NCBI RefSeq assembly: GCF_032884065.1
Contig: NC_088867.1
Coordinates: 48,977,317-49,041,316, forward strand
Reading direction: 5' to 3'
DNA from: Artemia franciscana
Taxonomy: Eukaryota; Arthropoda; Branchiopoda; Anostraca; Artemiidae
Length of the DNA stretch: 64,000 nt
A program made the translations under genes and the position numbers. Under the pieces are notes generated by a model. The model saw only the letters and a program-made list of their open reading frames with translations. It did not search any database and had not been told where the DNA came from. Below, in pieces: positions 4,056 through 51,896 of the stretch. Each line of letters begins with the position of its first letter. Positions within the stretch are counted from its first letter, which is position 1.

Positions 4056-4951
4056 CACCTAGTTGGTGGGGGCGCTTCTTGGTGGGGACAATTAAAAATT
4101 TCTCTTTCAATGATCTTCTTACAATTAAAAATTTGTCTTTGAACGATTTTCTTAAATACCCGTGTCCTGGTCTTCATTTATATTCCCTGTGTCCCAGTCA
4201 TCATTTGTGTCCTGGTATCCCAGTCTGTAATTTCTCTTTGAGTGTCCTGGTCGTCATTTATATTCCCTCTGTCCTGGTTGTCATTTGTGTCCCAGTCTGT
4301 AATTTCTCTTTGAGTGTTTTTTCTTTTTAGTTTTTTTTTAGTTTTTTAGCTTTTTTTAGTTTTTTTTTCTTCTTTATTTTTCAGCGTCACTATGAAATAC
4401 ATATCGCCAAACCTTTGTTTTTAACTAAAATCTGGTAGGCATTGATGACCTTATCCAAGTCAAAATCCCAAACCCAATCATCATCACTATCATTTTCAGT
4501 TTTGATATGTTTTGACTCTTGCTGTCCGGGTGGATTTTCATCTAACTGCGCGGTTTTGTGTTCTTTAGCTGCAAGCCTGTTTTCTTGCTGTTCTTGTGAT
4601 TCCTCAGCATGCTTTCTTTTCTTACTTTCTCTGTCAGCTGCAAGCCTGTTTTCTTGCTGTTCTTGTGATTCCTCGGCACACTTCTTTTTCTTACTTTCCC
4701 TATCAGCTGCAAGTTTTTGGCATAGACTCTTTGAGCAGCTTCCTCGGCTGTTGCCATTGTAGGTTCTTCAGTCATTTTACAATTAAACATTTTTCCGTCC
4801 ACAATCTTCTTGCAATTAAAAATTTGTCTTTGAACGATTTTCTTAAATACTTTTAATGACGTCATCGTCATAACAAACATGACGACAACTAACTTCATGA
4901 CGACATGATGACATGACGTCACTAAAAAGACAACTTATTTTTATATATATA
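4056..4951 (-). mobile_element. Non-autonomous Helitron copy (H1), 3'-truncated
   Basis: The minus-strand 5' end reads TATATATATAAAAATAAGTTG at the right edge, followed inward by TGACGTCA motifs, the Rep-like leader and repeats, minisatellite of GTCCTGGTCGTCATTTATATTCCC type at about 4163-4315, and at the left only a scrap of the 3' end (CACCTAGTTGGTGGGGGCGC). The terminal hairpin and CTAG are missing. The 5' end directly abuts the CTAG of the next copy at 4952. Confidence 0.8.
4440..4790 (-). pseudogene. Broken copy of the Helitron-borne basic-repeat/acidic-tail ORF
   Basis: It is homologous to the intact frame at 6437-6841: MTEEPTMATAEEAAQRVYAK, then basic repeats, then the acidic stretch before NAYQ. 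Here a missing base after AQRVYAK moves the 69-bp repeats into another frame, and the tail after NAYQ is changed. Function unknown; decayed. Confidence 0.65.
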
Positions 4952-5009
4952 CTAGCTGTTGGGGTGGCGCTTTGCGCCACCCCAACACCTAGTTGGTGGG
5001 GGCGCTTCA

Positions 5010-5485
5010 CATATATTTTTTTAGTTTTCTTTTTCTCCTTTATTTTTCAGTTTTTTTCCTTTTTTTAGTTTTTTTTTCCTTTTTCAGTTCTTTTAGTTTT
5101 TACCTTTTTTAGTTTTTTTTAGTTTTTTAGATAAAATTTTTTTTTAGTTTTTTCCTTTTTTTCTTTTTAGTTTTTTATTGGTTTTTACCTTTTTTTTTAG
5201 CTTTTTCAGTTTTTTTTAGTTTTTTCTTTTAACTTTTTTTTTAGTTTTTATCTTTTTTATTTTTTTTATTTTTATTCTTAATTTTATTAGTTTTCTTTTT
5301 CTCTTCTATTTTTCAGTTTTTTCCTTTTTTTAAGTTTTTTTTTAGTTTTCAGTTTTTTAGTTTTTTTTAGTTTTTTTAGTTTTTTAGCTTTTTTATTTTT
5401 TTTATTAGTTTTTTGTTTTTTTGTAGTTTTTGCCTTTTTTTAGTTTTTTCAGTTTTTTTTTAGTTTTTAGTTTTTACCTTTTTTA
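5010..5485. repeat. T-rich low-complexity tract (TTTTTAGTTTTTT type)
   Basis: Irregular repeats of TTTTTTAG, TTTTTCC and TTTTTACC units on the plus strand. The same composition occurs inside most non-autonomous Helitrons of the window, on whichever strand is consistent with the element's orientation, so it is an internal part of the elements. Confidence 0.85.
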
Positions 5486-5879: not shown

Positions 5880-7009
5880 TTTAACTACGTAAAACTTGCG
5901 AATATACAACATTCTTTGCTGTCCCATTGTCTGTGCATATAAATAGATTGTCAGGTTTACCGACTCTTGAACATGCAACATATAATGGTCCATGGGAAAA
6001 CAATCCGTATTCAGATCTATACCTCACGATTCTAATGATTGCCCTTGAGCTTTGTTGATTGTGATTGCTAATCGATCATTCCCAGTTTGTAATTTCTCTT
6101 TGAGTGTCCCGGTCGTCATTTATATTCCCTGTGTCCCGGTGTCCCGGTCGTCATTTGTGTCTTGGTGTCTATATATCCGGCCTGTGCCCCCGGCGTCCCC
6201 GTTGTAGTTGTGTCCCTGTGTCCCAGTCGTCATTTATATTCCCTCTGTCCCGGTCGTGATTTGTGTCCGGGTGTCCCAGTCTGTAATTTCTCTTTGAGGT
6301 TCCCGGTCATCACTTATATTTCCTCTGTCTCGGTCGTCATTTGTGTCCCGGTCTGTAATTTCTCTTTGAGTGTTTTTTCTTTTTAGTTTTTTTTAGTTTT
6401 TTACCTTTTTTCTTTTTTCAGTTTTCTTTTTCTTCTTTATTTTTCAGCGTCACTATGAAGTACATATCGACGAACCTTTCTTTTTTTAACGTACATCTGG
6501 TAGGCATTGATGACCTTATCCAAGTCAAAATCCCAAACCCAATCATCATCGCTATCATTTTCAGTTTTGATATGTTTTGACTCTCGCTGTCCAGGTGGAT
6601 TTTCATCTAACTGCGTGGTTTTGCATTCTTTAGCCGCAAGCCTGTTTTCTTGCTGTTCTTGTGATTCCCCGGCACGCTTTCTTTTCTTACTTTCTCTATC
6701 AGCTGCAAGGCTGTTTTCTTGCTGTTCTTGTGATTCCTCGGAACGCTTTCTTTTCTTACTTTCTCTATCAGCAGCAAGTTTTTTGGCATAAACTCTTTGA
6801 GCAGCTTCCTCGGCCTTTGCCATTGTAGGTTCTTCAGTCATTTTACAATTAAACATTTTTCCGTGAACAAATGTCTTAAATACCGTTAATGACGTCACCG
6901 TCATAGCGAAAATGACTACAACTAACTTCATGACGTCAGCCGACACAGAAACATGACGTCACCTGATCCACAGATCCACAGACAGACAACTTATTTTTAT
7001 ATATATAGA
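5696..7009 (-). mobile_element. Non-autonomous Helitron copy (H3) with intact small ORF
   Basis: The left edge is a truncated 3' hairpin (GCACCCCAACACCTAGTTGG). It continues through GCGCGCGTAAGTCGTTACGCGCC, a TA tract (about 5829-5875), a relic of the helicase C-terminus (AACATGCAACATATAATGGTCC, complementary to the ATAT-GTTGCATGTT segment), minisatellite (6090-6375) and the ORF at 6437-6841. At the right are three TGACGTCA motifs and the TC terminus (GA at 7008-7009 on the plus strand). Confidence 0.85.
6437..6841 (-). CDS. Helitron-borne small protein: basic repeats plus acidic tail
   Basis: Intact frame of 134 residues starting MTEEPTMAKAEEAAQRVYAK. Residues ~20-75 are two ~23-residue basic repeats of pattern LAADRESKKRKR..ESQEQQEN, the same unit found at the N-terminus of the Helitron Rep, and probably helical. 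An acidic segment with NDSDDDWVWDFDLDKVINAY follows, then a basic end (VKKRKVRR). An in-frame ATG at 6931 would add a hydrophobic MKLVVVIFAMTVTS stretch. I prefer 6841 because the equivalent leader frame in the autonomous copy at 34431-39431 runs into a stop. Related frames lie at 18119 and, broken, at 4440-4790. The acidic tail is absent from the autonomous Rep. Function unknown; it could be a captured host exon or a Rep derivative acting in trans. Confidence 0.55.
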   Translation of the reverse strand: MTEEPTMAKAEEAAQRVYAKKLAADRESKKRKRSEESQEQQENSLAADRESKKRKRAGESQEQQENRLAAKECKTTQLDENPPGQRESKHIKTENDSDDDWVWDFDLDKVINAYQMYVKKRKVRRYVLHSDAEK

Positions 7010-7444: not shown

Positions 7445-8554
7445 GCAACATATAATGGTCCATGGGAAAACAATCTGTATTCAGATCTATACCTCATGAT
7501 TCTAATGATTGCCCTTGAGCTTTGTTGATGGTGATTGCTAATCGACCATTCCCTGTCCCGGTGTCCCGGTCGTCATTTACATCCCCCTGTTTCCCCCGGT
7601 GTCCCCGTTGTAGTTGTGTCCCTGTGTCCCGGTCGTCATTTATATTCCCTGTGTCCCGGTCGTTTTTTTCCTTTTTTTTCTTTTTTAGCTTATTTAGATT
7701 TTTAGATTTTTTAGTTTTTTTATTAGTTTTTATTTTTTTTTTCTTTTTAGTTTTTTTGTCCCGGTCGTCATTTATATCCCCCTGTTTCCCCCGGTGTCCC
7801 CGATGTAGTTGTGTCCCTGTGTCCCGGTCGTCATTTATATTCCCTGTGTCCCGGTCGTCATTTGTATCCCGGTGTATTTTTTTTTTTATTTTTTTCTTTT
7901 TTAGTTCTTTTAGTTTTTACCTTTTTTAGTTTTTTTTAGTTTTTTAGATGAATATTTTTTTTAGTTTTTTCCTTTTTTTATTAGTTTTTAGTTTTTTTTG
8001 CAACATATAATGGTCCATGGGAAAACAATCTGTATTCAGATCTATACCTCATGATTCTAATGATTGCCCTTGAGCTTTGTTGATGGTGATTGCTAATCGA
8101 CCATTCCCTGTCCCGGTGTCCCGGTCGTCATTTACATCCCCCTGTTTCCCCCGGTGTCCCCGTTGTAGTTGTGTCCCTGTGTCCCGGTCTTCATTTATAT
8201 TCCCTGTGTCCCGGTCGTTTTTTTCCTTTTTTTCTTTTTTAGCTTATTTAGATTTTTAGATTTTTTAGTTTTTTTATTAGTTTTTATTTTTTTTTTCTTT
8301 TTAGTTTTTTTGTCCCGGTCGTCATTTATATCCCCCTGTTTCCCCCCGGTGTCCCCGATGTAGTTGTGTCCCTGTGTCCCGGTCGTCATTTATATTCCCT
8401 GTGTCCCGGTCGTCATTTGTATCCCGGTGTATTTTTTTTTTTATTTTTTTCTTTTTTAGTTCTTTTAGTTTTTACCTTTTTTAGTTTTTTTTAGTTTTTT
8501 AGATGAATATTTTTTTTAGTTTTTTCCTTTTTTTATTAGTTTTTAGTTTTTTTT
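7445..8554. repeat. 555-bp direct tandem duplication
   Basis: GCAACATATAATGGTCCATG starts at 7445 and again at 8000. The two units match nearly base for base through helicase relic, minisatellite and T-rich tract, with a few substitutions and length changes in T runs. Their similarity suggests a recent event. Confidence 0.9.
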
Positions 8555-8935
8555 TGTAGTTTTTGCCTTTTTTTAGTTTTTTCAGTTTTTTTTTTAGTTT
8601 TTTATTGGTTTTTACCTTTATTTTAGCTTATTTTTCAGTTTTTTTCCTTTTTTTTTTAGTTTTTAGTTTTTTTAGTTTTTTATCTTTTTTTTAGTTTTTT
8701 TAGTTTTTTTAGTTTTTTAGCTTTTTTATTTTTTTTTATTAGTTTTTAGTTTTTTTTGTAGTTTTTGCCTTTTTTTAGTTTTTTTAGTTTTTTAGCTTTT
8801 TTATTAGTTTTTAGTTTTTTTTGTAGTTTTTGCCTTTTTTTAGTTTTTTTAGTTTTTTAGCTTTTTTATTTTTTTTATTAGTTTTTAGTTTTTTTGTAGT
8901 TTTTGCCTTTTTTAGTTTTTTCAGTTTTGACGTCA
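8555..8935. repeat. T-rich low-complexity tract
   Basis: Repeats of TTTTTAGTTTTTTTTGTAGTTTTTGCCTTTTTT-like units with a loose ~65-bp periodicity at 8730-8930. Internal to Helitron H5. Confidence 0.8.
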
Positions 8936-9464
8936 CCTGATCCAGTTTTTTCAGGTGACGTCACCTGACCCATCCATCCATCCATCCACAGACAACTTAT
9001 TTTTATATATATAGATATATATATATATATATATATATATGTTTTTAACTACGTAAAACTTGCGAATATACAACATTCTTTGCTGTCCCATTGTCTGTGC
9101 ATATAAATAGATTGTCAGGTTTACCGACTCTTGAACATGCAACATATAATGGTCCATGGGAAAACAATCCGTATTCAGATCTATACCTCACGATTCTAAT
9201 GATTGCCCTTGAGCTTTGTTGATTGTGATTGCTAATCGACCATTCCCTGAGTCGCCATCGTCATTTATATATCCCCCTGTGCACCCCGGCGTCCCCTTTG
9301 TAGTTATGTCCCTGTGTCCCGGTCGTCATTTATATTCCCTGTGTCCCGGTCGTCATTTGTGTCCCGGTGTCCCAGTCTGTGATTTTTCTTTGAGTGTCCC
9401 GGGCGTCATTTCTATTCCTTGTGTCCCGGTGTCCCGGTCGTCATTTATATCCCCCTGTGCAGTT

Positions 9465-9957
9465 TTTTTATTTTTATTTATATTTTTTTAGTTTTCTTTT
9501 TCTCCTTTATTTTTCAGTTTTTTTCCTTTTTTTAGTTTTTTTTCTTTTTCAGTTCTTTTAGTTTTTACCTTTTTTAGTTTTTTTTTAGTTTTTTAGATGA
9601 AATTTTTTTTTAGTTTTTTTCCTTTTTTTCTTTTTAGTTTTTTATTGGTTTTTACCTTTTTTTTTTTAGCTTTTTCAGTTTTTTTAGTTTTTTTTTTACT
9701 TTTTATTTTTTTTTATTTTTTTTATTTTTATTCTTAATTTTATTAGTTTTCTTTTTCTCTTTTATTTTTCAGTTTTTTCCTTTTTTTTAAGTTTTTTTTT
9801 TTAGATTTTAGTTTTTTTATTTTTTTAGTTTTTTTTTAGTTTTTTTAGTTTTTTAGCTTTTTTATTTTTTTTTATTAGTTTTTAGTTTTTTTTGTAGTTT
9901 TTGCCTTTTTTTAGTTTTTTCAGTTTTTTTTTAGTTTTTAGTTTTTTACCTTTTTTA
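9465..9957. repeat. T-rich low-complexity tract
   Basis: Internal T-rich filler of Helitron H6, very similar to 5010-5485, which lies at the equivalent position of H2. Confidence 0.8.
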
Positions 9958-10285: not shown

Positions 10286-10357
10286 TGACGTCATGTTTCT
10301 GTGTCGGCTGACGTCATGAAATTAGTTGCCGTCATTTTTGCTTTGACGGTGACGTCA
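10286..10357 (+). promoter_or_regulatory. Three TGACGTCA (CRE-type) octamers in Helitron 5' leader
   Basis: Perfect palindromes TGACGTCA lie at 10286, 10309 and 10350. Spacing of 23 and 41 bp is identical in the copy starting at 17955 (17999, 18022, 18063). The octamer is the consensus for CREB/ATF bZIP factors. A promoter role is inferred from position just upstream of Rep; the coding start overlaps the second site. Confidence 0.5.
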
Positions 10358-12346
10358 TTCAAGTTATATAAGACATATGTTCATATTCAAAGAGTCTATG
10401 CCAAAAAACTTGCTGCTGATAGAGAAAGTCAGAAAAGAAAGCGTGCCGAGGAACTACCAGAGCAACGCGAAAGCAGACTTGCTGCTAAAAGAGAAAGTGA
10501 AAAAAGAAGGCGTGCCGAGGAATCAAAAGAACAGCAGGGAAACAGGCTTGAGGCTGATAGAGAAAGAAAGAACAGAAAGCATGCTGAGGAACTACCAGAG
10601 CAACGCGGAAGCAGACTTGCTGCTAAAAGAGAATGTGAAAAAAGAAGGCGTGCCGAGGAATTACAAGAACAGCAAGAAATCAGGCTTGCTGCTGATAGAG
10701 AAAGTAAGAAAAGAAAGCGTGCCGAAGAATCAGAGCAACCTGAAAGTTATCGCCTGGCATTAAGGTACAACCCAGTCGATGATTATAGCTTGAGTAGATG
10801 TGTTCAAATCGGGACAATGTCTAAAATTTGTCCCTATTGCAAGGCCTTGAAATTCAATGGTGAAACAATGGGAATGTGTTGCGCCTCAGAAAAAGTTAAA
10901 CTTCCTCTATTGGCTGCACCACCAGAGCCATTGAAGACTTTCCTTACTGGAACTACGTCAGAATCTAAGCGTTTTTTGTCAAAAATTAGACAATACAACT
11001 CATGTTTCCAAATGACGTCGTTTGGAGCCCAAATCGAAAATCCAGATCAATTTATGTCTACTTTCAAAGTAAAAGGGCAAATTTATCATAAAGCAGGGTC
11101 ACTTCTACCATTCTCAGGCGAGAATCATAAATTTTTACAATTGTACTTCATCAGTGATAGAAATTCTGAATTGAATGCACGTTGCGAAATTTCTCCCAAC
11201 GTTGAAAGGACAATCGTTTCCGAATTGCAACATCTTTTCCACGAAAATAATAATTTAGTACGTCTGTTCAAAACAGCCATCGATTTGATGCCTACTGATA
11301 CGCATAAAATTGTTATTTCCGCTGACAAAACGCCTCCTGGCCAACATGTGCGTAGATACAATACTCCGACTATCGACGAAGTGGCAATCGTTATGGTCGG
11401 TGATCAGTTTTTACCTCGAGATATTATTCTTCATAAGCGAAACGCTCAGTTGTTAAGAATTGCTGAAACTCATCGATGCTACGATGCCCTACAATATCCT
11501 ATCATTTTTTGGGATGGAGCCGACGGCTATCACTTTATTATTAAATTGATGAATCCAGCCACTAACAAAGAAATGAATAAGAAATGCAGTGCATTGCATT
11601 ATTATTCCTATAGACTAATGATTCGGCAGGATGAAGAAAATTATATTTTAAAATGCCGTGAATTGTTTCACCAATTTGTTGTGGATATGTATGCTAAAAT
11701 TGAATCAGAACGTTTGCTATATATCCGCCTGAATCAGACCAAGCTCCGCTCTGAACAATACATTCATTTGCGAGATGCAGTTATAAATGACGGTAATACC
11801 ACGAACGTTGGAAGATTAACAATTTTACCTTCGTCATATGCTGGCAGTCCCCGTCATATGCATGAATATGCTCAAGATGCTATTGCGTATGTTCGTCTCT
11901 ATGGTCGTCCAGATTTATTTATTACATTTACATGTAATCAATCTTGGGACGAGATACTGCAGCTTTTACTTCAAGGACAATCGGCGGTTCATAGGCATGA
12001 CATTACGGCACGTGTCTTCCGGCAAAAGTTGAAATCACTGATAAACTACCTTGTAAAACATGAAGTGTTTGGGTCAGTGCGATGCTGGATGTACTCAGTG
12101 GAATGGCAAAAACGAGGTTTGCCACACGCACATATACTAATCTGGCTACATAAAAAAATTACTTCGAACGAAATTGATGATGTGATTTCCGCTGAAATAC
12201 CTGATAAAAATGTCGATAAGGGGTTACATGATATTATTGTAAAAAATATGATACATGGACCTTGCGGTGCACTGAACGAAAATTCACCATGCATGGCCAA
12301 AGGAAGGTGCACAAAGCAATATCCTCGACTTTTAGTACCCAATTAA
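10316..12346 (+). pseudogene. Helitron Rep, N-terminal part with HUH motif (frameshifted)
   Basis: Open frame of about 676 residues from ATG 10316. Residues ~25-145 are five 23-residue basic repeats (LAADRESKKRKRAEE type). A Cys-rich segment follows near residue 170 (CPYC, then MGMCCAS), then the Helitron-like N domain (FITFTCNQSWDE, GSPRHMHEYAQDA). The HUH nuclease motif GLPHAHIL lies near residue 604. A NSPCMAKGRCTKQYP block precedes the stop. In the family this protein nicks DNA for rolling-circle transposition. The frame is lost at about 12340 by an apparent one-base deletion; the expected continuation (ITGNDGYPQYRRR) lies in the next frame. The segment preceding the repeats in other copies (MTEEP...EEAAQ) is deleted here. 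Confidence 0.88.
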
Positions 12347-12769: not shown

Positions 12770-14308
12770 GTGCAACAAAGAGTCCTGAATCCACCGGATA
12801 CAATATTAACAGCTTTTTTTTCGCTTTGCAAAAATGATTCTTTTGCAAAAAAACTGCTGTATACTGAAGTGCCTTCGTATTACACGTGGAATACTAAAAA
12901 TAAAGTATTTGAACGTCGAAAACAGGGTAAGTCAGTCGACGGCCAACCTACCATCTTCAAAGATACCACGATAGGAAGACTCTACACCGTTCACCCCAAT
13001 CAACATGAATGCTTCTTTCTACGGCTGCTTTTGGTGAATGTACCCGGTCCGACATCCTTTGAGTATTTGAGGACTGTAAATGGTACTATACATGACACTT
13101 ACCGTAGTGCATGCCAAGCTCTGAATTTATTGGAGAATGACCAACACTGGGATAATTGCATCAATGACGCGTGCGAAACGTCAACCCCAAGTAAAATTCG
13201 TGCATTGTTTGGCATCATTTTAACAACTTGCTCTCCATCAGCTCCTACAGAGTTATGGGAAAAATATAAGTCAAAAATGTCCGAAGATATACTTCATCGA
13301 AAACAGTTAGAGACGTCAGATATGACTTTTGATTTTACATCAGAAACTTATAACTAAACTTTAGTTGTTATAGAAGATTTGTGCGTAAGTATGGCAAACA
13401 AACCTCTTCAGGATTTGGGAATGCCTTCACCTAACCGTATCTCTGCTGTTTCGACATGTGTAGAATTGGATCGTGAACAAAGTTACAGTACGAGTGATCT
13501 ATTGTCGTATGTACAAAATAACATTTCCAAGTTAACGTCGGAACAAAAAGACATTTATGATATGATAATGCATTGTGTCGATAACAACGTTGGAGAAATT
13601 TTCTTTTTGGATGCGCCAGGAGGTACTGGTAAAACGTTTGTGATAAAACTGATTCTGGCATCAATTCGATCAAAAAATGATATAGCGTTGGCAATTGCGT
13701 CGTCCGGAATAGCCGCAACATTGCTGCCTGGTGGAAGAACTGCTCATTCCGCTTTGAAATTGCCTCTGAACATGCATTCTACAGAAAATCCCACGAGCAA
13801 TATTTCCAAATCATCTGGGATGGGTAAAGTATTGCAGCAATGCAAACTTATTATTTGGGATGAGTGCACAATGGCACACAAAAAATCGCTCGAGGCTCTG
13901 GATCAATGCTTGAAAGATTTGCGAGGGAAGTCGAAACCCTTTGGCAGCACCTTAATATTGCTTGCGGGAGATTTCAGGCAAACATTACCTATAATACCTA
14001 GATCAACTCCTGCAGACGAAATGAATGCTTGCCTGAAAAATTCTAATTTATGGGCACACGTAAAAACATTAAAATTAACTACAAATATGCGTGTCCGATT
14101 GCAAAACGATGACTCTGGTCAAACATTTTCAGATCAATTGCTGGCAATAGGAAACGGAAAGCTCCAAGTAGACTCAATTTCAGGACGTATACAACTACCT
14201 GCTGATTTCTGTAATTTAGTGACGTCCAAAAATGAATTGATTGAAAAAGTATTTCCGAATATTCTAAAAAATTATAAAAATAATAAATGGCTAAGTGAAA
14301 GAGCGATT
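12770..14308 (+). pseudogene. Helitron Pif1-type helicase, partial
   Basis: Starts in the inter-domain region (NPPDTILTAFFSLCKND). A TAA stop at about 13355 replaces a Tyr codon of the other large copy. After it come Walker A (DAPGGTGKTF, ~13612-13641), Walker B (IIWDECTMAH), motif III (GDFRQTLPII) and TTNMRVR. Sequence ends in SERAI at the gap. In the family this SF1B helicase unwinds the donor strand 5'-3' during rolling-circle transfer and is fused to Rep. The C-terminal motifs must lie in the gap or be absent. Confidence 0.88.
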
Positions 14309-14408
14309 NNNNNNNNNNNNNNNNNNNNNNNNNNNNNNNNNNNNNNNNNNNNNNNNNNNNNNNNNNNNNNNNNNNNNNNNNNNNNNNNNNNNNNNNNNNN
14401 NNNNNNNN
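14309..14408. other. Assembly gap (100 N)
   Basis: Exactly 100 undetermined bases, the usual placeholder for unknown length. It falls in the helicase, and the right flank is not Helitron, so the true missing length may be larger. Confidence 0.99.
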
Positions 14409-16796
14409 AACAAAGCCATGCCTGGCTAGATTAGATAACAGAGCTTTGGAATCTCATAATTGGGGTTCGAGTTCGACATACAATTCTATTCCCTCGGTAA
14501 ATAGTAGCACATTGGAATTTCTATCTTTTTTTTTTATTCAAATTTGGATAAAGGGGAGGTTTTTTTTTTCTCTTTGTAAATGAATATTTCCAAAGTTATA
14601 GTTTTTTGATTGTACCTTGTTTTGTCTTAAGGGAGGGAAATTGGATTGAAAACTTGCGATTTTTCTAAGAGGGGGAAGGTGTCACGGCAAGCTCGAGTTT
14701 TAAGTGGGACGAAGCAAACTTTTCCCCGACCCTTACAAAAGAATTATCGGCTAGCCGTTTGTCCCTTTATATGGCAACTATGACAGTTTATACTGCTCGT
14801 AAATAAATGAATACCTTCACTGGCTGTCCCATTCTGATTAGAAATGTAATTGCTTGACTTGCTTCCATGTGAAACATTTATGTTCTCCTTTCTTAAATGT
14901 TGAGCCAATTTCTTTGCTTTCTTCTTTAGATATTCAATCGTCTTTTCTTCGTTATATTTAAAAGCATTTAAAGACTTGTCACCTGCAATTTAATGAAGTT
15001 GCTTAAAAATACTGAAAGAAAAACATCCACGGAGGGAAATATATTCCTATTTTAAATTATTTAGCTTTTCTTCATTGTATTTGCGAACATTTAACACTAT
15101 TGATAACTAATCTGCCATCTATTTTAAACTTTATAATTTCTGAAAAATTCGAGAGAATAAATTGAGCTCTGTTTTCAGTCCCAGAATGGAAACAAGATGT
15201 AGAAGGATTTATTCTTGAGAAATGCTTGGGATGTATTAAAAAAAAAAAAAAAATTCAAGGGATTGTTATATTGTAATATTAGAGCCAAAAATCCTTATGC
15301 TTCGCTTCCAATATTTTATCCAAATTCTATACAACTATATTCCTTGTAAGGTCAGAAAAATTTCTATTTCCCTTAGAGATTTAACGTCGCTCCAAAAAAA
15401 GTAAAATTCAACGGACAAGCACAAAACTCTCACTGCATCATCTTTTTTAATGAGTGTCGAAGGGTACCGTAGGAACTTTGGATAGGGTTCACTCAATTCA
15501 AAATTGGAAGTTCTAATGCCCTTTTTAAGAGCCAAAAATGCTTGGAGGCAAAACAGCCCCCCCCCCAACCGCACCGTTATCGACCACGTAACCCCACCCT
15601 ACAGTCCCAAACCAAATAGCTGGCTATTCCACGGATCAAACTCCTGCCCATTGGAGAAAGAATTCTCAAAGCAGCACGCAAACCATATAGCTAAGACGGC
15701 CGCTTAGCTATAATCCCGGCAGTCCCAGCAACGAAGGGCTCTGCTCGACCACCACAGGACCTTCTGCTGATTTCTAAGACACATTCTTTATTTTTCAAAT
15801 TGCCAGGCTCTTCTAAAAAAAAAAAAAATTATGAATCTTCTAATTGAATTCCCTATTTTTCCCATTTTTAAAGACGTATATGGTTGTGTAAGTTCTCACT
15901 TAACCAATTTAAAGAATTTATTACTATATTTAGTGTTCTCGGTACTTTAATTTCTTAAATCAAGGGTACCCCACTACGCAAGAAGTTAATTAAAAATGAG
16001 TTAATTAAGAAGTTAATTAAGTCAAGATTAAAAAGTGCTATACACCAATTCTCCCCAAAAGTTAGGTCCAACAAAGGACAAAATATTGTTTTTCTAAGGG
16101 CTTGACACCCACAATTGGTTAATGGCAAAAGGGACCTTAATTAACCAAAAAATTCGTTATAGAACATTAAAGATCCCCTAAATCAGCCCCCTTTTTTCAA
16201 CTGGCTTAAAACCTATATTTGAAATAATTGGCAGATAGAACTGAAATACAGAGAAAGAAATAGAAAAAGGAAAATATTGGGTTCCTCCTGAAAATAAGGC
16301 CCGAAAAGGGAAATTTTTTTTTTATTCCTGAGCGACTAAAAATTTACAAACATACACCACTAGACCAAAAGAAACCCTCGTGTACAAATAAAACTTTAAT
16401 TTGGGGACATATGCCCCCAAACACAGGTCACGAAAAAGGGCCACTTTCATTTCCGATCGGATTTAAACTTATTCCCAAAGCAAAATTAAAAAAAAAAAAA
16501 TGTTTCCTCCTAAAATCGGCCCCAAGAAATGTTTTTTATCGAATAGCTAGGAACTTGTGGCCTTCAGTTCTTGAGCTAAGAGGAGTCATTGCAGAAAAAA
16601 AACAAACAATTTGGTTCACCCGAGAATGGGGCTGAGAACAGCTAAAAACGTCGTTGTGAACGTCTTGAAAAACTGTTTATTCTCTTAAAAGTTACATCTT
16701 CAAGATTTTCTGTTAAAAGGAGTATGTTAAAAAAAAGAAAAAAAAGAGAGAGAACAGAATTTGGTTGACCTGAAAACGGGGCCAAAAACTTGTTTT
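14409..16796. other. No gene; diverged interspersed repeats
   Basis: No convincing coding sequence. Segments at about 15330-15600 (TTCTAATGCCCTTTTTAAGAGCC, then CTTGGAGG) and 16130-16790 (ACCTGAAAACGGGGCC and similar) look like old relatives of the R1 repeat or its flanks. A 13-base A run lies at about 15240. The TTGGGGTTCGAGTTCG at 14461 is only vaguely tRNA-like. Confidence 0.5.
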
Positions 16797-17954: not shown

Positions 17955-18118
17955 TCTATATATATAAAAATAAGTTGTCTGTCTGTCTGTGGATCAGGTG
18001 ACGTCATGTTTCTGTGTCGGCTGACGTCATGAAATTAGTTGTCGTCATTTTTGCTATGACGGTGACGTCATTAAAGATATTTAAGACATGCGTTCACGGA
18101 AAAATGTTTAATTGTAAA

Positions 18119-18469
18119 ATGACTGAAGAACCTACAATGGCAACAGCCGAGGAAGCTGCTCAAAGAGTCTATGCCAAAAAACTTGCTGCTGATAGAGAAA
18201 GTAAGAAAAGAAAGCGTGCCGAGGAATCACAAGAACAGCAAGAAAACAGGCTTGCAGCTGATAGAGAAAGTAAGAAAAGAAAGCGTGCCAAGGAATCACA
18301 AGAACAGCAAGAAAATAGGCTTGCGGCTAAAGAACGCAAAACCGCGCAGTTAGATGAAAATCCACCTGGAAAGCGAGAGTCAAAACATATCAAAACTGAA
18401 AATGATAGCGATGATGACTGGGTTTGGGATTTTGACTTGGATAAGGTCATCAATGCCTACCAGATTTAA
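18119..18469 (+). CDS. Helitron-borne small protein: basic repeats plus acidic tail
   Basis: Frame of 116 residues with the same start (MTEEPTMATAEEAAQRVYAK) and design as the ORF at 6437-6841: two basic 23-residue repeats, a RLAAKERKT linker and the acidic NDSDDDWVWDFDLDKVINAY segment. It ends at a TAA right after NAYQI, where the 6437 copy continues for about 19 basic residues. The protein is similar in two separate elements, so coding constraint is possible, but recent common origin could also explain it. Function unknown. Confidence 0.5.
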   Translation: MTEEPTMATAEEAAQRVYAKKLAADRESKKRKRAEESQEQQENRLAADRESKKRKRAKESQEQQENRLAAKERKTAQLDENPPGKRESKHIKTENDSDDDWVWDFDLDKVINAYQI

Positions 18470-18595
18470 GTTAAAAAACAAAGGTTCGGCGATATGTACT
18501 TCATAGTGACGCTGAAAAATAAAGAAGAAAAAAAAACTGAAAAAATGTAAAAAACTAAGAAAAAACTAAAAAGAAAAAACACTCAAAGATAAATT

Positions 18596-18948
18596 ACAGA
18601 CAGGGACACAAATGACGACCGACACAGAGGGAATATAAATGACGACCGGGAACCTCAAAGAAAAATTACAGACTGGGACACCCGGACACAAATCACGACC
18701 GGGAATATAAATGACGACCGGGACACAGGGACACAACTACAACGGGAACGCCGGGGGCACAGGCGGGATATATAATTGACGACTGAGACACAGGGATTGT
18801 TTGAATAGAAATTACACACCGGGACACTGGGACACAAATGACGACCGGGACACTGGGACACAGGGAATATAAATGACGACCGGGACACTCAAAGAGAAAC
18901 TACAAACTGGGACACCAGGACACAAATGACGACCGGGTCACAGGGAAT
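18596..18948. repeat. Minisatellite (GACCGGGACAC / GTCCCGGTCGTCATTT)
   Basis: Irregular units such as GGGAATATAAATGACGACCGGGACACAGG and CAAAGAGAAATTACAGACTGGGACAC. The same array occurs in nearly every non-autonomous Helitron of the window, in fixed orientation relative to the element, and is absent from both large copies. Confidence 0.9.
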
Positions 18949-19430
18949 ATAAATGCTATTTATATGCACAGACAATGGGACAGCGAAGAATGTTGTATAT
19001 TCGCATGTTTTACGTAGTTAAAAATATATATTTATATCTATCTCTGTTCACAGGTGGGACACAGGGACACAGCTAACTAATGGCGCGTAACTAATATGGC
19101 GCGTAACGACTTACGCGCGCGGGGGGGCTTGGGGGGGGCGCGAAGCGCCCCACCAACTAGGTGTTGGGGTGGCGCGAAGCGCCACCCCAACAGCTAGTCT
19201 ATATATATAAATAAGTCTATATATATAAAAATAAGTTGTCTGTGTGTCGAGTGACGTCATGTCATCAGGTCGTCAAGTCGTCATTATGACGATGACGTCA
19301 TTAAAGGTATTTAAGACATTCGTTAAGGTATTTCATAGTGACGCTGAAAAATAAAGAAGAAAAAGAAAACTGAAAAAAGAAAAAAGGTAAAAAACTAAAA
19401 ATAACTAAAAAGAAAAAACACTCAAAGAGA

Positions 19431-32759: not shown

Positions 32760-33007
32760 TTCAAGCCGAAGTAGCTCAGTTATATAACTACCGGTGTTGG
32801 CGCAGTGGGTTTGACCTTAGCGTGGTAATACGGGACCCAGAGATCGAATCATGCTGCGGGAATGCACTACAGGGCCGAAGCAGGGACCTTAGTAGTCAAG
32901 AAGCGCCGTTAATCCGATACAAATACAAATACAGTAGCTCAGTTTGTGAAGCGTTATGTTCCAGGTTCTAGGTCCGAGAGGTTCCAGGTTCGAACCTTGG
33001 CTTTAAA
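32760..33007 (+). repeat. tRNA-like module type B, split by SINE
   Basis: AAGCCGAAGTAGCTCAGTT (32763-32781) is interrupted by 151 bp and resumes at 32933 (AGTAGCTCAGTTTGTGAAGCG) through CCAGGTTCGAACCTTGG. It is the same module as 19694-19780. Confidence 0.7.
32782..32932 (+). mobile_element. tRNA-derived SINE, ~151 bp, with 12-bp target duplication
   Basis: Flanked by a perfect direct repeat AGTAGCTCAGTT (32770-32781 and 32933-32944). The inside has an A-box-like TTGGCGCAGTGGGTTTGACC and a B-box-like GAGATCGAATC about 30 bp later, and ends in GATACAAATACAAATAC, a simple 3' tail. This is the hallmark of LINE-mobilised, Pol III-transcribed SINEs. The partner LINE is unknown. Confidence 0.88.
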
Positions 33008-33009
33008 GA

Positions 33010-33655
33010 AGAAAAAAAACTAAAAAAGATAAAAACTACAAAAAAACTAAAAAGAAAATACGAAAAAAACTAAAAAACTAAAAAAAACAAAAAAGGTAAA
33101 AACTACAAAAAAACTAAAAAGAAAAAAAAAACTAAAAACTAATAAAAAAACTAAAAAAACTAAAAACTGAAAAAGAAAATAAACTAAAAAAAGGAAAAAA
33201 ACTGACAAATAAAGGAGAAAAAGAAAACGAAAAAAATAAAAATAAAAAAAAAATAAAAAAGGTAAATGTATTCAAGCCGAAGTAGCTGAGTTGGTAAAGT
33301 GTTATGTTCTAGGTTCTAAATCCGAGAGGTTCCAGCCTCGAACCTTGGCTTTAGCCTTAATACAAAAGAAGAAAAAAACTAAAAAAGAAAAAAAACTAAA
33401 AAAAACTAAAAAACAGGTAAAAACTACTAAAAAAAACTAAAAAAGCTAAAAAACTTAAAAAAGGTAAAAAACCAAAAACTAAAAAATAAAAAAAAATAAA
33501 AAAGGGTAAAAACAGCAAAAAAACTAAAAAGAAAAAAAAACTAAAAACTAATAAAAAAAAACTAAAAACTGAAAAAGAAAAAAACTAAAAAAAAGGAAAA
33601 AACTGAAAAATAAAGGAGAAAAAGAAAACTAAAAAAAAATAAAAATTAAAAAAAG
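33010..33655. repeat. A-rich low-complexity tract
   Basis: AAAAAACTAAAAAGG-type units, the complement of the T-rich filler in minus-strand copies, interrupted by a tRNA-like module at 33266-33362. Confidence 0.85.
33266..33362 (+). repeat. tRNA-like module, type B
   Basis: GTATTCAAGCCGAAGTAGCTGAGTTGGTAAAG to CCTCGAACCTTGGCTTTAGC. The A-box is good and the T-arm carries one change from the 33007 copy. Tandem with the split module upstream. Confidence 0.6.
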
Positions 33656-34052
33656 GGAATATAAATGACGACCGGGACACTCAAAGAGAAATTACAGACT
33701 GGGACACCGGGACACAAATGACGACTGGGACGTGTGTGTCAACTGACGTGATGTTTGTGTGTCGACTGACGTCATGTTTGTCGACTGTAAATGACGACTG
33801 GGACTCAGGGACATAACTATAAAGGTTACGCCGGGGGGCACAGGGGGATATACAAATGACGATGGGGCCAGAGGGAATGTTTGATTAGAAATCACCATCA
33901 ACAAAGCTCAAGGGCAATCATTAGAATAATAAGAATACGGATTGTCTGAATAAGGATTGTTTTTCCCATCGACAATTATATGTTGCATGTTCAAGAGTCG
34001 GTAAACCTGACAATCTATTTATATGTACAGACAACGGGACAGCGAAGAATGT

Positions 34053-37345: not shown

Positions 37346-39253
37346 TTATATAATTACTTCGTTCGAAGTAATTTTTTTATGTAGCCAGATTAGTATATGT
37401 GCGTGTGGCAAACCTCGTTTTTGCCATTCCACTGAGTACATCCAGCATCGCACTGACCCAAACACTTCAAGTTTTACTATATAGTTTATCAGTGATTTCA
37501 ACTTTTGCCGGAAGACACGGGCCGTAATGTCATGCCTATGAACCGCCGATTGTCCTTGAAGTAAAAGCTGCAGTATCTCGTCCCAAGATTGATTACATGT
37601 AAATGTAATAAATAAATCTGGACGACCATAGAGACGAACATACGCAATAGCATCTTGAGCATATTCATGCATATGACGGGGACTGCCAGCATATGACGAA
37701 GGTAAAATTGTTAATCTTCCAACGTTTATGGTATTACCGTCATTTATAACTGCATCTCGCAAATGAATGTATTGTTCAGAGCGGAGTTTGGTCTGATTCA
37801 GGCGGATATATAGCAAACGTTCTGATTCAATTTTAGCATACATATCAACGACAAATTGGCGAAACAATTCACGGCATTTTAAAATATAATTTTCTTCATC
37901 CTGACGAATCATTAGTCTATAGGAATAATAATGCATTGCACTGCATTTCTTATTCATTTCTTTGTTAGTGGCTGGATTCATCAATTTAATATTAAAGTGA
38001 TAGCCGTCGGCTCCATCCCAAAAAATGATAGGATATTGTAGGGCATCGTAGCATCGATGAGCTTCAGCAATTCTTAACAACTGAGCGTTTCGCTTATGAA
38101 GAATAGTATCTCGAGGTAAAAACTGATCACCGACCATAACGATTGCCACTTCGTCGATAGTTGGAGCATTGTATCTACGCACATGTTGGCCAGGAGGCGT
38201 TTTGTCAGCGGAAATGACAATTTTATGCGTACCAGTAGGCATCAAATCGATGGCTGTTTTGAACAGACGCACTAAATTATTATTTTCGTGGAAAAGATGT
38301 TGCAATTGGGAAACGATTGTCCTTTCAACGTTGGGAGAAATTTCGCAACGTGCATTCAATTCAGAATTTCTATCACTGATGAAGTACAATTGTAAAAATT
38401 TATGATTCTCGCCTGAGAATGGTAGAAGGGACCCTGCTCTATGATAAATTTGCCCTTTTACTTTGAAAGTAGACATAAATTGATCTGGATTTTCGATTTG
38501 GGCTCCAAACGACGTCATTTGGAAACATGATTTGTATTTTCTGATTTGTGACAAAAAACGCTTAGATTCTGACGTAGTTCCAGTAAGGAAAGTCTTCAAT
38601 GGCTCTGGTGCTGCAGCCAATAGAGGAAGTTTAACTTTTCCTGAGGCGCAACACATTCCCATTGTTTCACCATTGAATTTCAAGGCCTTGCAATAGGGAC
38701 AAATTTTAGACATTGTCCCGATTTGAACACATCTACTCAAGCTATAATCATCGACTGGGCTGTACCTGAATGCCAGGCGATAACTTTCAGATTGCTCTGA
38801 TTCCTCGGAACGCTTTCTTTTCTTACTTTCTCTATCAGCAGCAAGCCTGATTTCTTGCTGTTCTTGTGATTCCTCGGCACGCTTTCTTTTCTTACTTTCT
38901 CTATCAGCAGCAAGCCTGATTTCTTGCTGTTCTTGTGATTCCTCGGCACGCCTTCTTTTTTCACTTTCTCTTTTAGCAGCAAGTCTACTTTCGCGTTGCT
39001 CTGGTAGTTCCTCGGCACGCTTTCTGTTCTTTCTTTCTCTATCAGCCTCAAGCCTGTTTCCTTGCTGTTCTTTTGATTCCTCGGCACGCTTTCTGTTCTT
39101 TCTTTCTCAATCAGCCTCAAGCCTGTTTCCTTGCTGTTCTTTTGATTCCTCGGCACGCTTTCTTTTCTGACTTTCTCTATCAGCAGCAAGTTTTTTGGCA
39201 TAGACTCTTTGAGCATCTTCATCGGCTTTTGCCATTGTAAGTTCATCATTCAT
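37346..39253 (-). pseudogene. Helitron Rep, N-terminal part with HUH motif
   Basis: Starts ATG 39253 (MNDELTMAKADEDAQRVYAK). Seven ~23-residue basic repeats follow, two more than in H7. A TGA at 39107-39109 interrupts the second repeat (LEAD-stop-ERK). The frame otherwise runs on through CPYCKALKFNG...MGMCCAS (Cys-rich), FITFTCNQSWDE and the HUH motif GLPHAHIL (~37400). It ends at a template-switch palindrome (AATTACTTCGAACGAAGTAATT). Function as for the family: rolling-circle nickase/ligase; inactive here. Confidence 0.88.
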
Positions 39254-39431
39254 TTTAAAGCTAAACATTAATAGATTTCTACGTGAACATATATGTCTTA
39301 AATATCTTTAATGACGTCACCGTCATAGCAAAAATGATGACAACTAACTTCATGACGTCAGTCGACACAGAAACATGAAGTCACCTGACAGACAGACACA
39401 CAGACAGACAACTTATTTTTATATATATAGA

Positions 39432-42040: not shown

Positions 42041-43230
42041 ATGAAAATGGCATATAAGAAAGTAAAAACTCGTGCTACCGCGTCCGGGGTAACCGACGGT
42101 ATGAGACAAAGAATTGCAAATTGCGACAATGAAAATGATGATAATGTTGATAATGATGATAATGTTGACAACGATGAGAATGAAAATGATTTTGTTATCG
42201 CGTCCGGGGCAACCGACGATCATTTATCCGATCTGACGGAGACTCTCCAGTCGGAGAAGACTTCGTTTATCCTAACCCCAAAAACATATCTCTCACTAGG
42301 AACGCTAAACGTATGCACATTGGCCAAACCAGGAAAAAAGAACTAGTCCTAAAAGAGATGAACCATTACCGCTGGGACATTGTTGGATTTTCTGAGACTC
42401 ACCTTCCCTCCGCAGGAATAGAAAGAATAAACGACATCGCGCTCATCACGTCTGGAAGAAGTGATGGAGTTCATCGCCAGGGTGTCGGTTTCCTACTCTC
42501 CAAGCGAACCAAACAGTCTCTTCTTGCCGACCATCCTGTCTCTGAACGTATTATCACCATTCGTCTGAAAGGAACCATTGCCAACATGACCATAATCCAA
42601 GTTACGCCCCAGACTCGTCCCAGAATGATCAAGAAGCCAAAGAATTCTACAGCCAACTCCAACACACTGTTGACACAGCTCCCAAGAAAGATGTTCTGTT
42701 CATGATTGGGGACTTCAACGCCATTATCGGACACTCAAATGATGGACTTGAAGACGTCATGGTTAAGTTCGGGCATGGGCGGCAAAACCACAGGGGTAAA
42801 TACCCATCGACTTTTGTCGGGATAACGAACTTTTCATGACGAACACCATGTTCCGTCATAGAGAACGAAGGACAGTTACTTGGAGATCCCCTGACGGACG
42901 CACTGCAAACATGATTGACTACATAGTTGTCGGCAAGCGATGGAAATCATCAGCACTGAATACAGTCTCCATAGCCGGTGGTGACTTCGACTTGGACCAC
43001 GTTCTAGTCATGTCTGAGCTCCGTTTGCGAATTCGGAAGCCCCAACAGCTTAAGAAAAGCTTACCAAGATATCGTGTCGACCTGTTGAAAAACATAGAAA
43101 CAAGGAACAGGTATAGAACGACACTCTCAAGCAAGTTGTCAAGAAACCAAACCCATGGAAGCTCCAACAGCAGAAGAAATTTACCGATTGGTCGACGAAA
43201 GCGCATCCATCATCGGAGAAACTGCTAGTG
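42041..43230 (+). pseudogene. Retrotransposon apurinic-type endonuclease domain
   Basis: Split over several frames: an acidic stretch with DNDDNVDNDENEND, then LGTLNVCTLAKPGK, FSETHLPSAG (catalytic Glu), GVGFLLSKR, GDFNAIIGHSNDG (catalytic Asp/Asn), MIDYIVVGKRW and DLDHVLVMSEL (terminal Asp-His pair). This is the order of the exonuclease-endonuclease-phosphatase fold that nicks target DNA for target-primed reverse transcription. Frameshifts lie at about 42340, 42610-42710 and 42780-42840. Confidence 0.82.
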
Positions 43231-44447
43231 AAATCCTGGGAATTCAGACCCATTTAGATAAACCGTGGATCACCCCCGAAATTATTGATCTATGTGTGCA
43301 GAAGCGCGTCCATGCTAACAAGGTAGATCGACAAAGCAAGGACGAGTACAAGAGGCTGAAGCGCCTAGTAGAAAAGAAAATCCGGCAAGCTCTACGACAC
43401 TACGTCAATGATAAATGTCGTGAGTGTGAAGAAGCCTTTCAAAAAGGTAATAGCCACTTCATGCACAAGAAAGTCCGTGAACTGTCAAAAAAGAAGTCAT
43501 CGGCCGCTCCTACACTGTTAGATAAACACAGGCTCCAAATCACGGACTCCGAGGCAAGACGAGAACGTTGGAAGGATCACTTCAGAGAAAAACTGAACCC
43601 CGCAATAACGCCCGACCCGAACATCTTACTATATTTCCTACTACCGCAGTACCCAGTACACCCAAGCCCTTCTCCACTAAGAGATGAATTACTCTCAGCA
43701 ATAAAATCTCTAAAAATTAATAAAGCCCCAGGCCCGGGTGGTATTCAGTCAGAACTATTAAAAGCAGGCCCAGAAGAACTGGTCGATATCTATCACAAAG
43801 TCATAACAAGTGTTTGGGAAACGGGCCACTTCCCCAGATCTTGGGCGAAAGCCACCATCGTACCCCTTTTTAAAAAAGGGGAAAAGGGCGACTGTAACAG
43901 CTACAGACCAATAAATTTAACTAACCAACCGGCGAAGATTCTTACAAAAATTCTCCTTGACCGTATGTAATCTCTGACAAACAATATCTTAGGGGAATAC
44001 CAAGCAGGCTTTCGAAAAGACCGCTCCACCATAGACCAGATTTTCTCCACTCGGCAAATGATGGAGAAGTATATCAAGTTTGTGAAAGAGCTGCTACTAC
44101 TATTCATTGATTTCAAGTAGGCTTTTGACTTGATATGGCGAGATGGATTATGGCACATCCTGCTACACTATGGAGTCCCTGAAAACATAGTAATCCTGAT
44201 AAGAGACATGTATTCACATTTCGTCAGCCAAGTTCAAACGCCAGAGGGATTGACAGAAGGGTTTCTGACATCGGCGGGCGTTCTTCAAGGTTGTCTCTTG
44301 TCACCCCAACTCTTTAACCTGTTCCTCAACGCAGCGCTATCATTTGCCGAGACTGTTGACGGTGCAGAAATTGGAGGGAAGCTTATCGATAAATTGGCAT
44401 ACGCAGATGACATCGAAAAATTCAACAGTCAAGAGCATCTACTCTAA
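43155..44447 (+). pseudogene. Retrotransposon reverse transcriptase domain
   Basis: The frame from 43155 covers a helical linker (VQKRVHANKVDRQSKDEYKR) and RT motifs: KINKAPGPGGIQSELLK, WAKATIVPLFKKGEKGDCNS, YRPINLTNQPAKI. It continues past TAA (43968) to YQAGFRKDRSTIDQIF, LLLFIDFK-stop-AFD (catalytic Asp region; TAG at about 44118), GVLQGCLLSPQLFN and LAYADD (catalytic YADD). Same frame throughout, so only two stops kill this part. Confidence 0.88.
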
Positions 44448-46304: not shown

Positions 46305-47152
46305 TAGCTGTTATATACTAGCTACCCCAACACCTAGTTGGTGGGGGCGCTTCGCACCCCCCAAGCCCTCCCGCGCGCGCAAGTCGTTACGCGCCATATT
46401 AGTTACGCGCCATTGTAGTTGTGTCCCTGTGTCTCACCTGTGAATATAGATAGATATATATATATATATTTTTAACTACGTAAAACTTGCGAATGTACAA
46501 CATTCTTGGCTGTCCCATAGTCTGTGCATATAAATAGATTGTCAGGTTTAAACGACTCTTGAACATGCAACATATAATTGTCCATGGGGAAAACAATCTG
46601 TATTCAGATCTATACCTCATTATTCTAATGATTGCCCTTGAGCTTTGTTGATGGTGATTGCTAATCAAACATTCCCTGTGTCACTGTCGTCATTTATATA
46701 TCCCCCTGTGCCCCCCAGCATCCCCGTTGTTGTTGTTTCCCTGTGTCCCGGTCGTCATTTGTGTCCCGGTGTCCCAGTCTGTAATTTCTCTTTGAGTGTC
46801 GCGGTCGTCATTTATATTCCCTGTGTCCCGGTCGTCATTTGTGTTCCGGTGTCCCGGTCTGTAATTTCTCTTTGAGTGTCCTGGTCGTCATTTATATTCC
46901 CTGTGTCCCGGTCGTCATTTGTGTCCCGGTACTTTGTTGATGGTGATTGCTAATCGAACATTACTTGTGTCCTGGTCGCTTTCTATTTGAGTGTCCCGGT
47001 CGTCATTTATATTCCCTATGTCCCGGTGTCCCGGTCGTCATTTGTGTCCCGATGTCCCGGTGTGTAATTTCGTCGATCTACAAACATGACGTCAGTCGAC
47101 ACACAAACATGACGTCACTCGACACACAGACAACTTATTTTTATATATATAG
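46304..47152 (-). mobile_element. Non-autonomous Helitron (H15)
   Basis: The 3' end is scrambled: CTAG occurs twice (46304 and 46318) and the hairpin is half deleted (CTAGCTACCCCAACACC). Then the GCGCGCAAGTCGTTACGCG block, helicase-end relic, minisatellite (46675-47075), TGACGTCA motifs and 5' end at about 47151. Confidence 0.8.
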
Positions 47153-47296
47153 TTGTCCCGGTGTCCCGGTCGTCATTTGTGTCCTGATGTCCCGGTGTGT
47201 AATTTCGTCAATCAACAAACATGACGTCAGTTGACACACAAACATGACGTCATTCGACACACACACACACAGACAACTTATTTTTATATATATAGA
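47153..47296 (-). mobile_element. Helitron 5'-end fragment (H16)
   Basis: Minisatellite remnant plus the 5' leader (GTCAATCAACAAACATGACGTCA) and terminus (GA at 47295-47296). It closely repeats the last ~140 bp of H15, so it is a duplicated 5' end in tandem. Confidence 0.8.
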
Positions 47297-47300
47297 TAGA

Positions 47301-47392
47301 CTAGCTGTTGGCTAGTCTAGCTAGTCTAGCGCCCCCACCAACACCTAGTTGGTGGGGGCGCAACGTGCCCCCAAGCCCCCCCGCGCGCGTAA

Positions 47393-47448
<56 letters not shown>

Positions 47449-48613
47449 TTTTAACTACGTAAACTACGTCTATAAATATATGTGTGTTTTTTAACTACCT
47501 CATGATTCTAATGATTGCCCTTGCGCTTGGTTGATGGTGATTGCTAATCGACCATTCCCTGTGTCGCCGTCGTCATTTATATATCCCCCTATGCCCCCCG
47601 GCGTCCACGTTGCAGTTGTGTCCCTGTGTCCCGGTCGTCATTTATATTCCCTGTGTCCTGGTCGTCATTTGTGTCCCGGTGTCCAGTCTGTGATTTCTCT
47701 TTGAGTGTCCCGGGCGTCATTTATATTCCTTGTGTCCCGGTGTCCCGGTCTGTATATACATTCGTTTTTTAATTGGTCTTTTTTTTAGTTTTTAGTTTTT
47801 CACCTTTTTTTTAGTTTTGTTAGTTATAGCTCATGATTCTAATGATTGCCCTTGAGCTTTGTTGATTATGATTGCTAATCGAACATTCCCTGTGTCACCG
47901 TCGTCATTTATATATCCCCCTGTGCCCCCCGGCGTCCCCGTTGTAGTTGTGTCCCTGTGTCCCGGTCGCCATTTATATTCCCTGTGTCCCGGTCGTCATT
48001 TGTATGCCGGTGTCCCGGTTTGTATATACATTCGTTTTTGAAATGGTATATGATGAAATAAATTTTTGTATTTTTCCCCTTTTTTCTTTTTAGTTTTTTT
48101 GGTTTTTACTTTTTTAGTTCTTTTTTATTTTTTCTTTTTAGTTTTTTTTATTTTTATTTTTTTTAGTTTTGTTTTTCTCTTTTATTTTTCATTTTTTTTC
48201 CTTTTTTTCTTTTTTTTTCTTTTTTTTAGTTTTTTAGCTTTTTTAGTTTTTTAGCTTTTTTAGTTTTTTAGCTTTTTTAGTTTTTTATTAGTTTTTAGTT
48301 TTTTTTTAGTTTTTAGTTTTTACCTTTTTTTTTAGTTTTTTTTTTACTTATATCCTGGTCGTCATTTATACTCCCTGTGTCTCGGTCGTCATTTGTGTCC
48401 CGGTGCTTTGTTGATGGTGATTGCTAATCGAACATTCCTTGTGTCCCGGTCGCTTTCTCTTTGAGTGTCCCGGTCGTCATTTATATTCCCCTATGTGCCG
48501 GTGTCCCGGTCGTCATTTGTGTCCCGATGTCCCGGTCTGTAATTTCGTCAGTCGACACACAAACATGACGTCACTCGACACACAGACACACAGACAACTT
48601 ATTTTTATATATA
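47301..48613 (-). mobile_element. Non-autonomous Helitron (H17)
   Basis: CTAG at 47301-47304, a rearranged 3' block (GGCTAGTCTAGCTAGTCTAG), TA tract, two runs of helicase relic and minisatellite (47490-47770 and 47830-48030), T-rich tract (48062-48350), TGACGTCA and 5' end at 48613. Confidence 0.75.
48062..48350. repeat. T-rich low-complexity tract
   Basis: TTTTTTAGCTTTTTTAG units inside H17. Confidence 0.8.
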
Positions 48614-49423
48614 CTAGTTAGTGGGGTTGTTTTTTTGTAGTTTTTATCTTTTTTTTTTAGGTTTTTTAGTTTTTTTTACTTATGTCCTAGTCGTCATTTA
48701 TTTATATTCCCAGTATCCTGGTCGTCATTTGTGTCCCAGTGTCGCAGTCTGTAATTTATCTGCGTCCCAGGCGTCATTTCTATTCCCTGTGTCCCGGTCG
48801 TCATTTGTGTCCCAGTGTCCTGGTCAGTAATTTATCTTTGAGTGTTCCAGTCTGTAATTTCTCTTCGAGTGTCCCGGTCGTCATTTATATTCCCTGTGTC
48901 TCGGTTTTTAGCTTTCTTTTTCTACTTTATTTTTCAGTTTTTTTCCTTTTTTTAGTTATTCTTCTTTTTCAGTTTTTAGTTTTTTTAGTTTCTTTTTATT
49001 AGTTTTTTTTTTCTTTTTATTTTTTTGTAGTTTTTACCTTTTTTAGTTTTCTTTTAGTTTTTTTTCTTTTTTAGTATTTAGTTTTTTACCTTTTTTTTAG
49101 TTTTTTAGCTTTTTATTTTTTTAGTATTTTCTTTTTAGTTTTTTTGTAGTTTTTACCTTTATTAGTTTTTTTTTCTTCTTTTGTATTTTACCTTTTTTAT
49201 TTTTTTTTTCTTCTTTTGTATTAATGCTAAAGCCAAGGTTCGAACCTGGAACCTCTCGGACCTGGAACATAACGCTTTACCAGCTCAGCTACTTCGGCTT
49301 GAATACATTTGTTTTTGAATTGGTATATGATGTGTCCCGGTCGTCATTTATATTCCCTGTGTCCGGTCGTCATTTGTTTCCCGGTGTCCCGGTCTGTAAT
49401 TTCTGTATGTAATTGGTCTGTAA
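48614..49423 (-). mobile_element. Rearranged Helitron interior (H18)
   Basis: CTAGTTAGTGGGG, then T-rich DNA, minisatellite (48680-48905), more T-rich DNA, a tRNA-like module on the minus strand (49221-49315) and minisatellite. Neither end is normal. Confidence 0.6.
49221..49315 (-). repeat. tRNA-like module, type B
   Basis: Minus strand: GCCGAAGTAGCTGAGCTGGTAAAGCG (A-box TAGCTGAGCTGG), then CCAGGTTCGAACCTTGG and CTTTAGC. The variable part is shorter than at 33007. It is the cleanest copy of the module, yet its anticodon arm does not fold normally. Confidence 0.6.
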
Positions 49424-50247: not shown

Positions 50248-51886
<1,639 letters not shown>

Positions 51887-51896
51887 TATATATATA

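Follow-up and report, generated by a model that had tools for sequence, protein, structure and literature searches.

DHH_Mothra of rice is a non-autonomous Helitron with a 96-aa ORF and no RepHel of its own, which a sister family presumably supplies (PMC4683698). The Artemia elements described here resemble it in being abundant in the genome and in their blocks of repeats, their TC/CTAG ends and a short ORF without RepHel. However, the DHH_Mothra ORF is reverse-oriented and gives a weak match to APG6, whereas the Artemia ORF begins with the start codons of Rep (PMC4683698). Among silkworm Helitrons (PMC3789558), many elements carry captured gene fragments and new Helitrons arise by combining others, both of which recall our case, but the silkworm fragments were matched to 268 genes while the tail studied here has no parent among the best genome matches. 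The FoHeliNA elements of Fusarium (PMC5148889) also retain their termini around an inner segment unlike known Helitrons, some having multiple 5' termini; in contrast, they are present in low copy number, and the Artemia elements number thousands. The kind of element is already known, and the tail-bearing sequence appears to be an addition to it; text searches of the literature, made by words and not by sequence look-up, found no description of the tail.

The window analysed in this study is a 64,000-nucleotide stretch of the Artemia franciscana genome, and the positions of the relevant features within it are given in Table 1. H8 has all of the canonical Helitron features (5' TC, 3' CTRR, insertion between A and T, and a 3' hairpin), while in H3 the 3' terminus is missing at the junction with a neighbouring element. 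Searching with RepHel by tblastn recovered only a 21-residue helicase C-terminal remnant in H8, and the Rep catalytic domain is absent inside this element, as in a non-autonomous Helitron. Other tail-bearing elements (L053, L058 and L069) retain more of the helicase or of Rep than H8 does. The first-pass annotation had called these Helitrons otherwise coding-less, which is not strictly so, as both H3 and H8 retain a remnant of the helicase C-terminus. Their kinship with elements encoding Rep (HUH) and a Pif1 helicase is clear from the matches to Helitron_like_N (E = 6.6e-58) and PIF1 (E = 4.7e-61), and RepHel frames of 1,594 and 1,602 codons have their 5' end in common with the short-ORF elements.

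Table 1. Positions of the short-ORF elements, their parts and the Rep copies within the window
Feature	Position	Strand	Remarks
H1, broken copy of the short ORF	4374..4775	-	4775 end is an estimate from alignment
H3 short ORF	6437..6841	-	134 aa plus stop, counted from the MTEEP start
H3 ORF, foreign tail AKECKTTQ...NDSDDDWVWDFDLDKVINAYQ...HSDAEK	6440..6634	-	not in A1, A2 or 14 other Reps
H3 ORF, Rep-like N-terminus and 69-bp (23-aa) basic repeats	6635..6841	-	
A1, Rep ORF with 23-aa repeats and Helitron_like_N	10316..12346	+	no tail
H8, complete non-autonomous Helitron	17955..19197	+	1,243 bp, A/TC...CTAG/T (slashes mark the element ends), two 3' hairpins
H8 short ORF	18119..18469	+	116 aa from MTEEP; TAA directly after NAYQI
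A2, Rep (ORF 37346-38713) with repeats and 5' end upstream	37346..39431	-	no tail

The related short frames that had been noticed in H3 (134 aa) and H8 (116 aa) are indeed present, and both become longer if an upstream ATG is used (164 aa in H3; 18029-18469 (+), 146 aa, in H8). In H1, the loss of one base near the start of the repeats shifts the frame, which bears out its description as a broken copy, but its tail frame remains open. The N-terminus and the 69-bp repeats of the short ORF match Rep of A1 and A2, as had been proposed. Of the 21 residues in the core of the tail, NDSDDDWVWDFDLDKVINAYQ, 7 are acidic, 1 is basic and 4 are aromatic.

The tail had also been regarded as foreign to Rep, and this view held beyond the window, since it is absent from A1, A2 and 14 further Reps. 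The 14 RepHel sequences inspected comprised two whole frames with their flanks (L062, 1,594 codons including a 34-codon masked stretch, and L063, 1,602 codons) and 12 N-termini, which were 1,151-base stretches within open frames of 1,433-1,579 codons; the open frames of the whole set thus span 1,433-1,602 codons, and none of the 14 contained the tail. When the tail was aligned locally with RepHel, the score was no better than for shuffled sequences, 67 of 300 of which reached it. The longest open frame around the tail was 326 codons among the matches listed (three partly overlapping sets of 150), compared with 1,300 or more for RepHel. The helicase ORF of A1, at 13391-14434 (+), contains a run of masked bases that appear as X in its translation.

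An exact 33-mer of the tail occurs 4,488 times (2,238 + 2,250) in the 1.27-Gb assembly and the reversed pattern 0 times, so that the abundance of the tail is far beyond chance; a 33-mer of the Rep catalytic site occurs 2,583 times. Thirty loci chosen by their 5' flank, independently of the tail, fall into two 5' types, one beginning with MTEEP (E) and the other with MTDEL (D). The D-type start continues into the tail in some loci and directly into Rep in others. In a third, older type the tail is longer and ends in ...HSDERQAKVKQTKQLESDTDD; 150 out of 997 first-look candidates for it were scored. As the old-type tail has a long clean frame of 79 codons, it was probably coding in the past. In L066, L069 and L070 this tail runs in frame into a mid-Rep stretch, ERTIVSQLQHLF (ESTIVSQLQHLF in L070). 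A second repeat-coding start directly follows the tail in L064, L073 and L076. The tail is out of frame with the repeats in L023, L068 and L071.

When the three types are compared by their consensus tails, 0 synonymous and 1-3 nonsynonymous base differences are seen across 46 codons. Comparing one copy per type, the tail of the old-type L069 is identical to those of L053 (D) and H8 (E) at 132 of 138 bases (96%), while the N-terminal part of L069 agrees with that of L053 at only 65 of 105 aligned bases (62%) and with that of H8 at 86 of 129 (67%), and the 5' UTR of the old type is 65% identical to those of D and E. Between single copies of D and E, the 5' parts are about 93% identical and the tails differ by about 3%. 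Since protein constraint alone would leave synonymous differences between the types, their absence argues for a recent transfer of the segment, and judging from these alignments the tail has probably been shuffled recently between Helitron families. This argument relies on the old type, with one copy of each type, as the 5' parts of D and E differ little.

To evaluate selection on the tail, 75 copies were gathered; 29 copies retrieved through their protein similarity were excluded, leaving 46 that were tested over 46 codons, with the neutral expectation based on the same mutation spectrum. In the first grouping, the 151 distinct substitutions comprised 106 nonsynonymous, 36 synonymous and 9 stop changes, compared with 102.3, 38.2 and 10.5 under neutrality. 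When L059_583 and L052_1264 were grouped as D, 153 substitutions were obtained (107/38/8 against 103.2/39.4/10.4, P = 0.66). Among the copies, L006_2390 is partial, L065-L067 were chosen by a peptide that lies beyond the tested codons, and there are two near-identical sets (L041/L042/L050 and L045/L046). A strict set of 36 copies, leaving out five chosen for long frames (L068-L072), the three window copies and two partial ones, yielded 60 nonsynonymous, 16 synonymous and 5 stop changes against 54.7, 19.7 and 6.6 expected (P = 0.89), and the raw pairwise dN/dS of the tail, from 32 of these 36 copies, was 1.07. Nor was there a nonsynonymous deficit among changes common to at least two copies (27/8/1; 25/6/2 after relabelling; 12/2/1 in the strict set), which is a weak test as such changes are few. 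The tail is under no detectable selection.

The same method was applied, over 453 codons, to 12 Rep copies, of which 5 contain stops and two (L062 and L063) had been selected for long open frames. Here 62 nonsynonymous, 37 synonymous and 7 stop changes were found against 76.0, 23.9 and 6.1 expected (P = 0.002), and the raw pairwise dN/dS was 0.13-0.38, the window pair A1-A2 giving 0.38. As Rep shows constraint by the same method, the method detects constraint where it is present; the nonsynonymous deficit to be looked for in a functional small protein was seen in the Rep control and not in the tail. With regard to frame status, 21 of the 46 copies are open from the usual start to NAYQ, and 3 are open from another ATG only (in L068, this ATG lies a long way upstream, in other sequence); of the rest, 20 are broken and 2 extend past the end of the locus. 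A less strict count gives 22 of 46 as open. The first-pass annotation had named two signs that would speak against a working protein, a dN/dS near 1 and random stops in most copies. The former agrees with the neutral fit and the raw value; as to the latter, 20 of the 46 copies are broken. Two apparent signs of selection or conservation were discarded: the 0 nonsynonymous against 2 synonymous changes in a 29-codon core of the three window copies, with which the larger samples disagree, and the identical tails in 150 of 150 matches, these being the best-scoring ones.

Counts over the whole genome gave a similar picture. Freeing six synonymous transition sites in the tail 33-mer raised the count from 4,488 to 4,595 (+107), and freeing six nonsynonymous transition sites of the same kinds raised it from 4,488 to 5,381 (+893). 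A single Phe-to-Leu variant (WDLDLD; for example at C1:2472603-2472635) accounts for 738 of the 893 copies. With this variant set aside, 155 nonsynonymous copies remain at five sites, or about 31 per site compared with 18 per synonymous site, although the 155 may include copies that also carry the Phe-to-Leu change and the mix of mutation types is then not quite equal to that of the synonymous set. Because the Phe-to-Leu variant has been amplified with a core residue changed, the exact tail is seemingly unneeded for spreading, which suggests that it is dispensable in this respect. The idea that the short ORF is an undescribed working component, a regulator or an adaptor, is unsupported by these data, in which the substitutions fit neutrality and, per site, nonsynonymous variants are no rarer than synonymous ones.

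Most probably, then, the chimeric frame arose when a fragment was joined downstream of the Rep start, and it has multiplied as a passenger on non-autonomous Helitrons. Each element keeps the RepHel 5' end, the first codons and some of the 23-aa basic repeats, followed by a segment of about 200 bp from another source. Downstream of it lie a spacer of minisatellite DNA, a remnant of the helicase C-terminus and, if the element is complete, the 3' hairpins. The segment may have joined the Rep start in frame and then moved between families by template switching or recombination, and RepHel from autonomous copies would have amplified the elements in trans. A recent origin of the copies may be why about half of them still have an open frame. 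A captured gene fragment would be the likeliest source of the tail, a captured host exon having been among the options of the first-pass annotation. Its parent gene was not found among the genome matches scored, which were the best ones and were filled by Helitron copies. Pfam gave no family for the old-type tail, and searches of PDB sequences gave a best E of 0.96 in one case and no hit in another. Nothing useful came from viral contigs (searched with the short ORF, Rep and the old-type tail), GTDB genome contigs (short ORF and Rep), phages (short ORF) or plasmids (Rep); a single viral-contig stretch matching the DNA pattern of the core (L001) was taken as chance. Among the observations that count against the passenger explanation, 21 of 46 copies keep the usual frame from the start to NAYQ, the old-type tail was probably coding once, and in three element types the tail is fused in frame with the Rep start, which is somewhat suggestive.

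A small DNA-binding regulator is a different way to account for such a frame: its STPR-like repeats would bind Helitron DNA, and its acidic aromatic tail would recruit host factors or compete with Rep. The 23-aa repeats of Rep A1 (10316-12343 +) do score above the Pfam cut-off for STPRs (31.1 bits, E = 3.2e-7, cut-off 27 bits), silkworm FMBP-1 binds DNA through its STPR domain (PMC4821344), the core is both acidic and aromatic, and AlphaFold, run on the single sequence of the short ORF, predicted helices at residues 7-74 and 107-122. However, the short ORFs themselves scored 13.4 and 15.1 bits against STPR (PF21107), below the cut-off and outside the family, and, apart from the repeats, the model is weak (pTM 0.31) and has no fold match in Foldseek. 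A literature search found no paper joining STPR and Helitron. Given also the neutrality of the tail and the change of a core aromatic residue in the abundant Phe-to-Leu copies, such a regulator seems improbable. Neutral decay of single copies would be expected even with a trans-acting protein, so that neutrality is compatible with activity. For the same reason, if the old-type 79-aa tail were a former Helitron accessory protein, combining DNA binding by repeats with an acidic aromatic tail, passed as a cassette between families and still trans-active in a few copies, neutral change in the non-autonomous copies would not reveal its product; we regard this, too, as a long shot.

It is rather unlikely, although less so, that the tail is native to an older autonomous Helitron, whether as a portion of Rep or as a first gene, with decayed derivatives as its present carriers. 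The old-type loci in which the tail continues into Rep (L066, L069, L070), or immediately precedes a second repeat-coding start (L064, L073, L076), would fit this notion. Yet the join to Rep skips the zinc-finger part and thus resembles a deletion joint, and the short frames around the tail among the matches listed, its absence from all 14 RepHel N-termini inspected and its chance-level alignment to RepHel all point the other way. As for the tail DNA, not the peptide, being kept as a cis element that aids amplification, the near-identity of the tail in three types, synonymous sites included, despite a different 5' part in the old type, would be consistent with it, but recent shuffling explains the identity equally well. 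Moreover, L054-L057, L060 and L061 have the same 5' ends without the tail, and single copies mutate freely within it, leaving a cis role very improbable. The passenger explanation carries a more general message, that a small ORF common to many transposon copies can look conserved through recent amplification. Counting variants over the whole genome is a simple way to tell passenger frames from selected ones, and the case points to cassette shuffling between Helitron families.

Some further observations concern the surroundings of these elements. In L084 (C2:30784200-30785350), Rep lies in a 1,500-codon open frame with a different 5' leader, ...KSKTRLAVQRE. The same leader is found in L076, an old-type tail element, so families apparently exchange their 5' ends. 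Within the window, open frames at 42313-43970 (+) appear to resemble a LINE endonuclease and reverse transcriptase. Minisatellite-like arrays of GACCGGGACACAAATGAC-type units and of T/A-rich ones surround the Helitron pieces at 5000-5480, 7670-9950, 33000-33800, 46700-51900 and 62800-63900.
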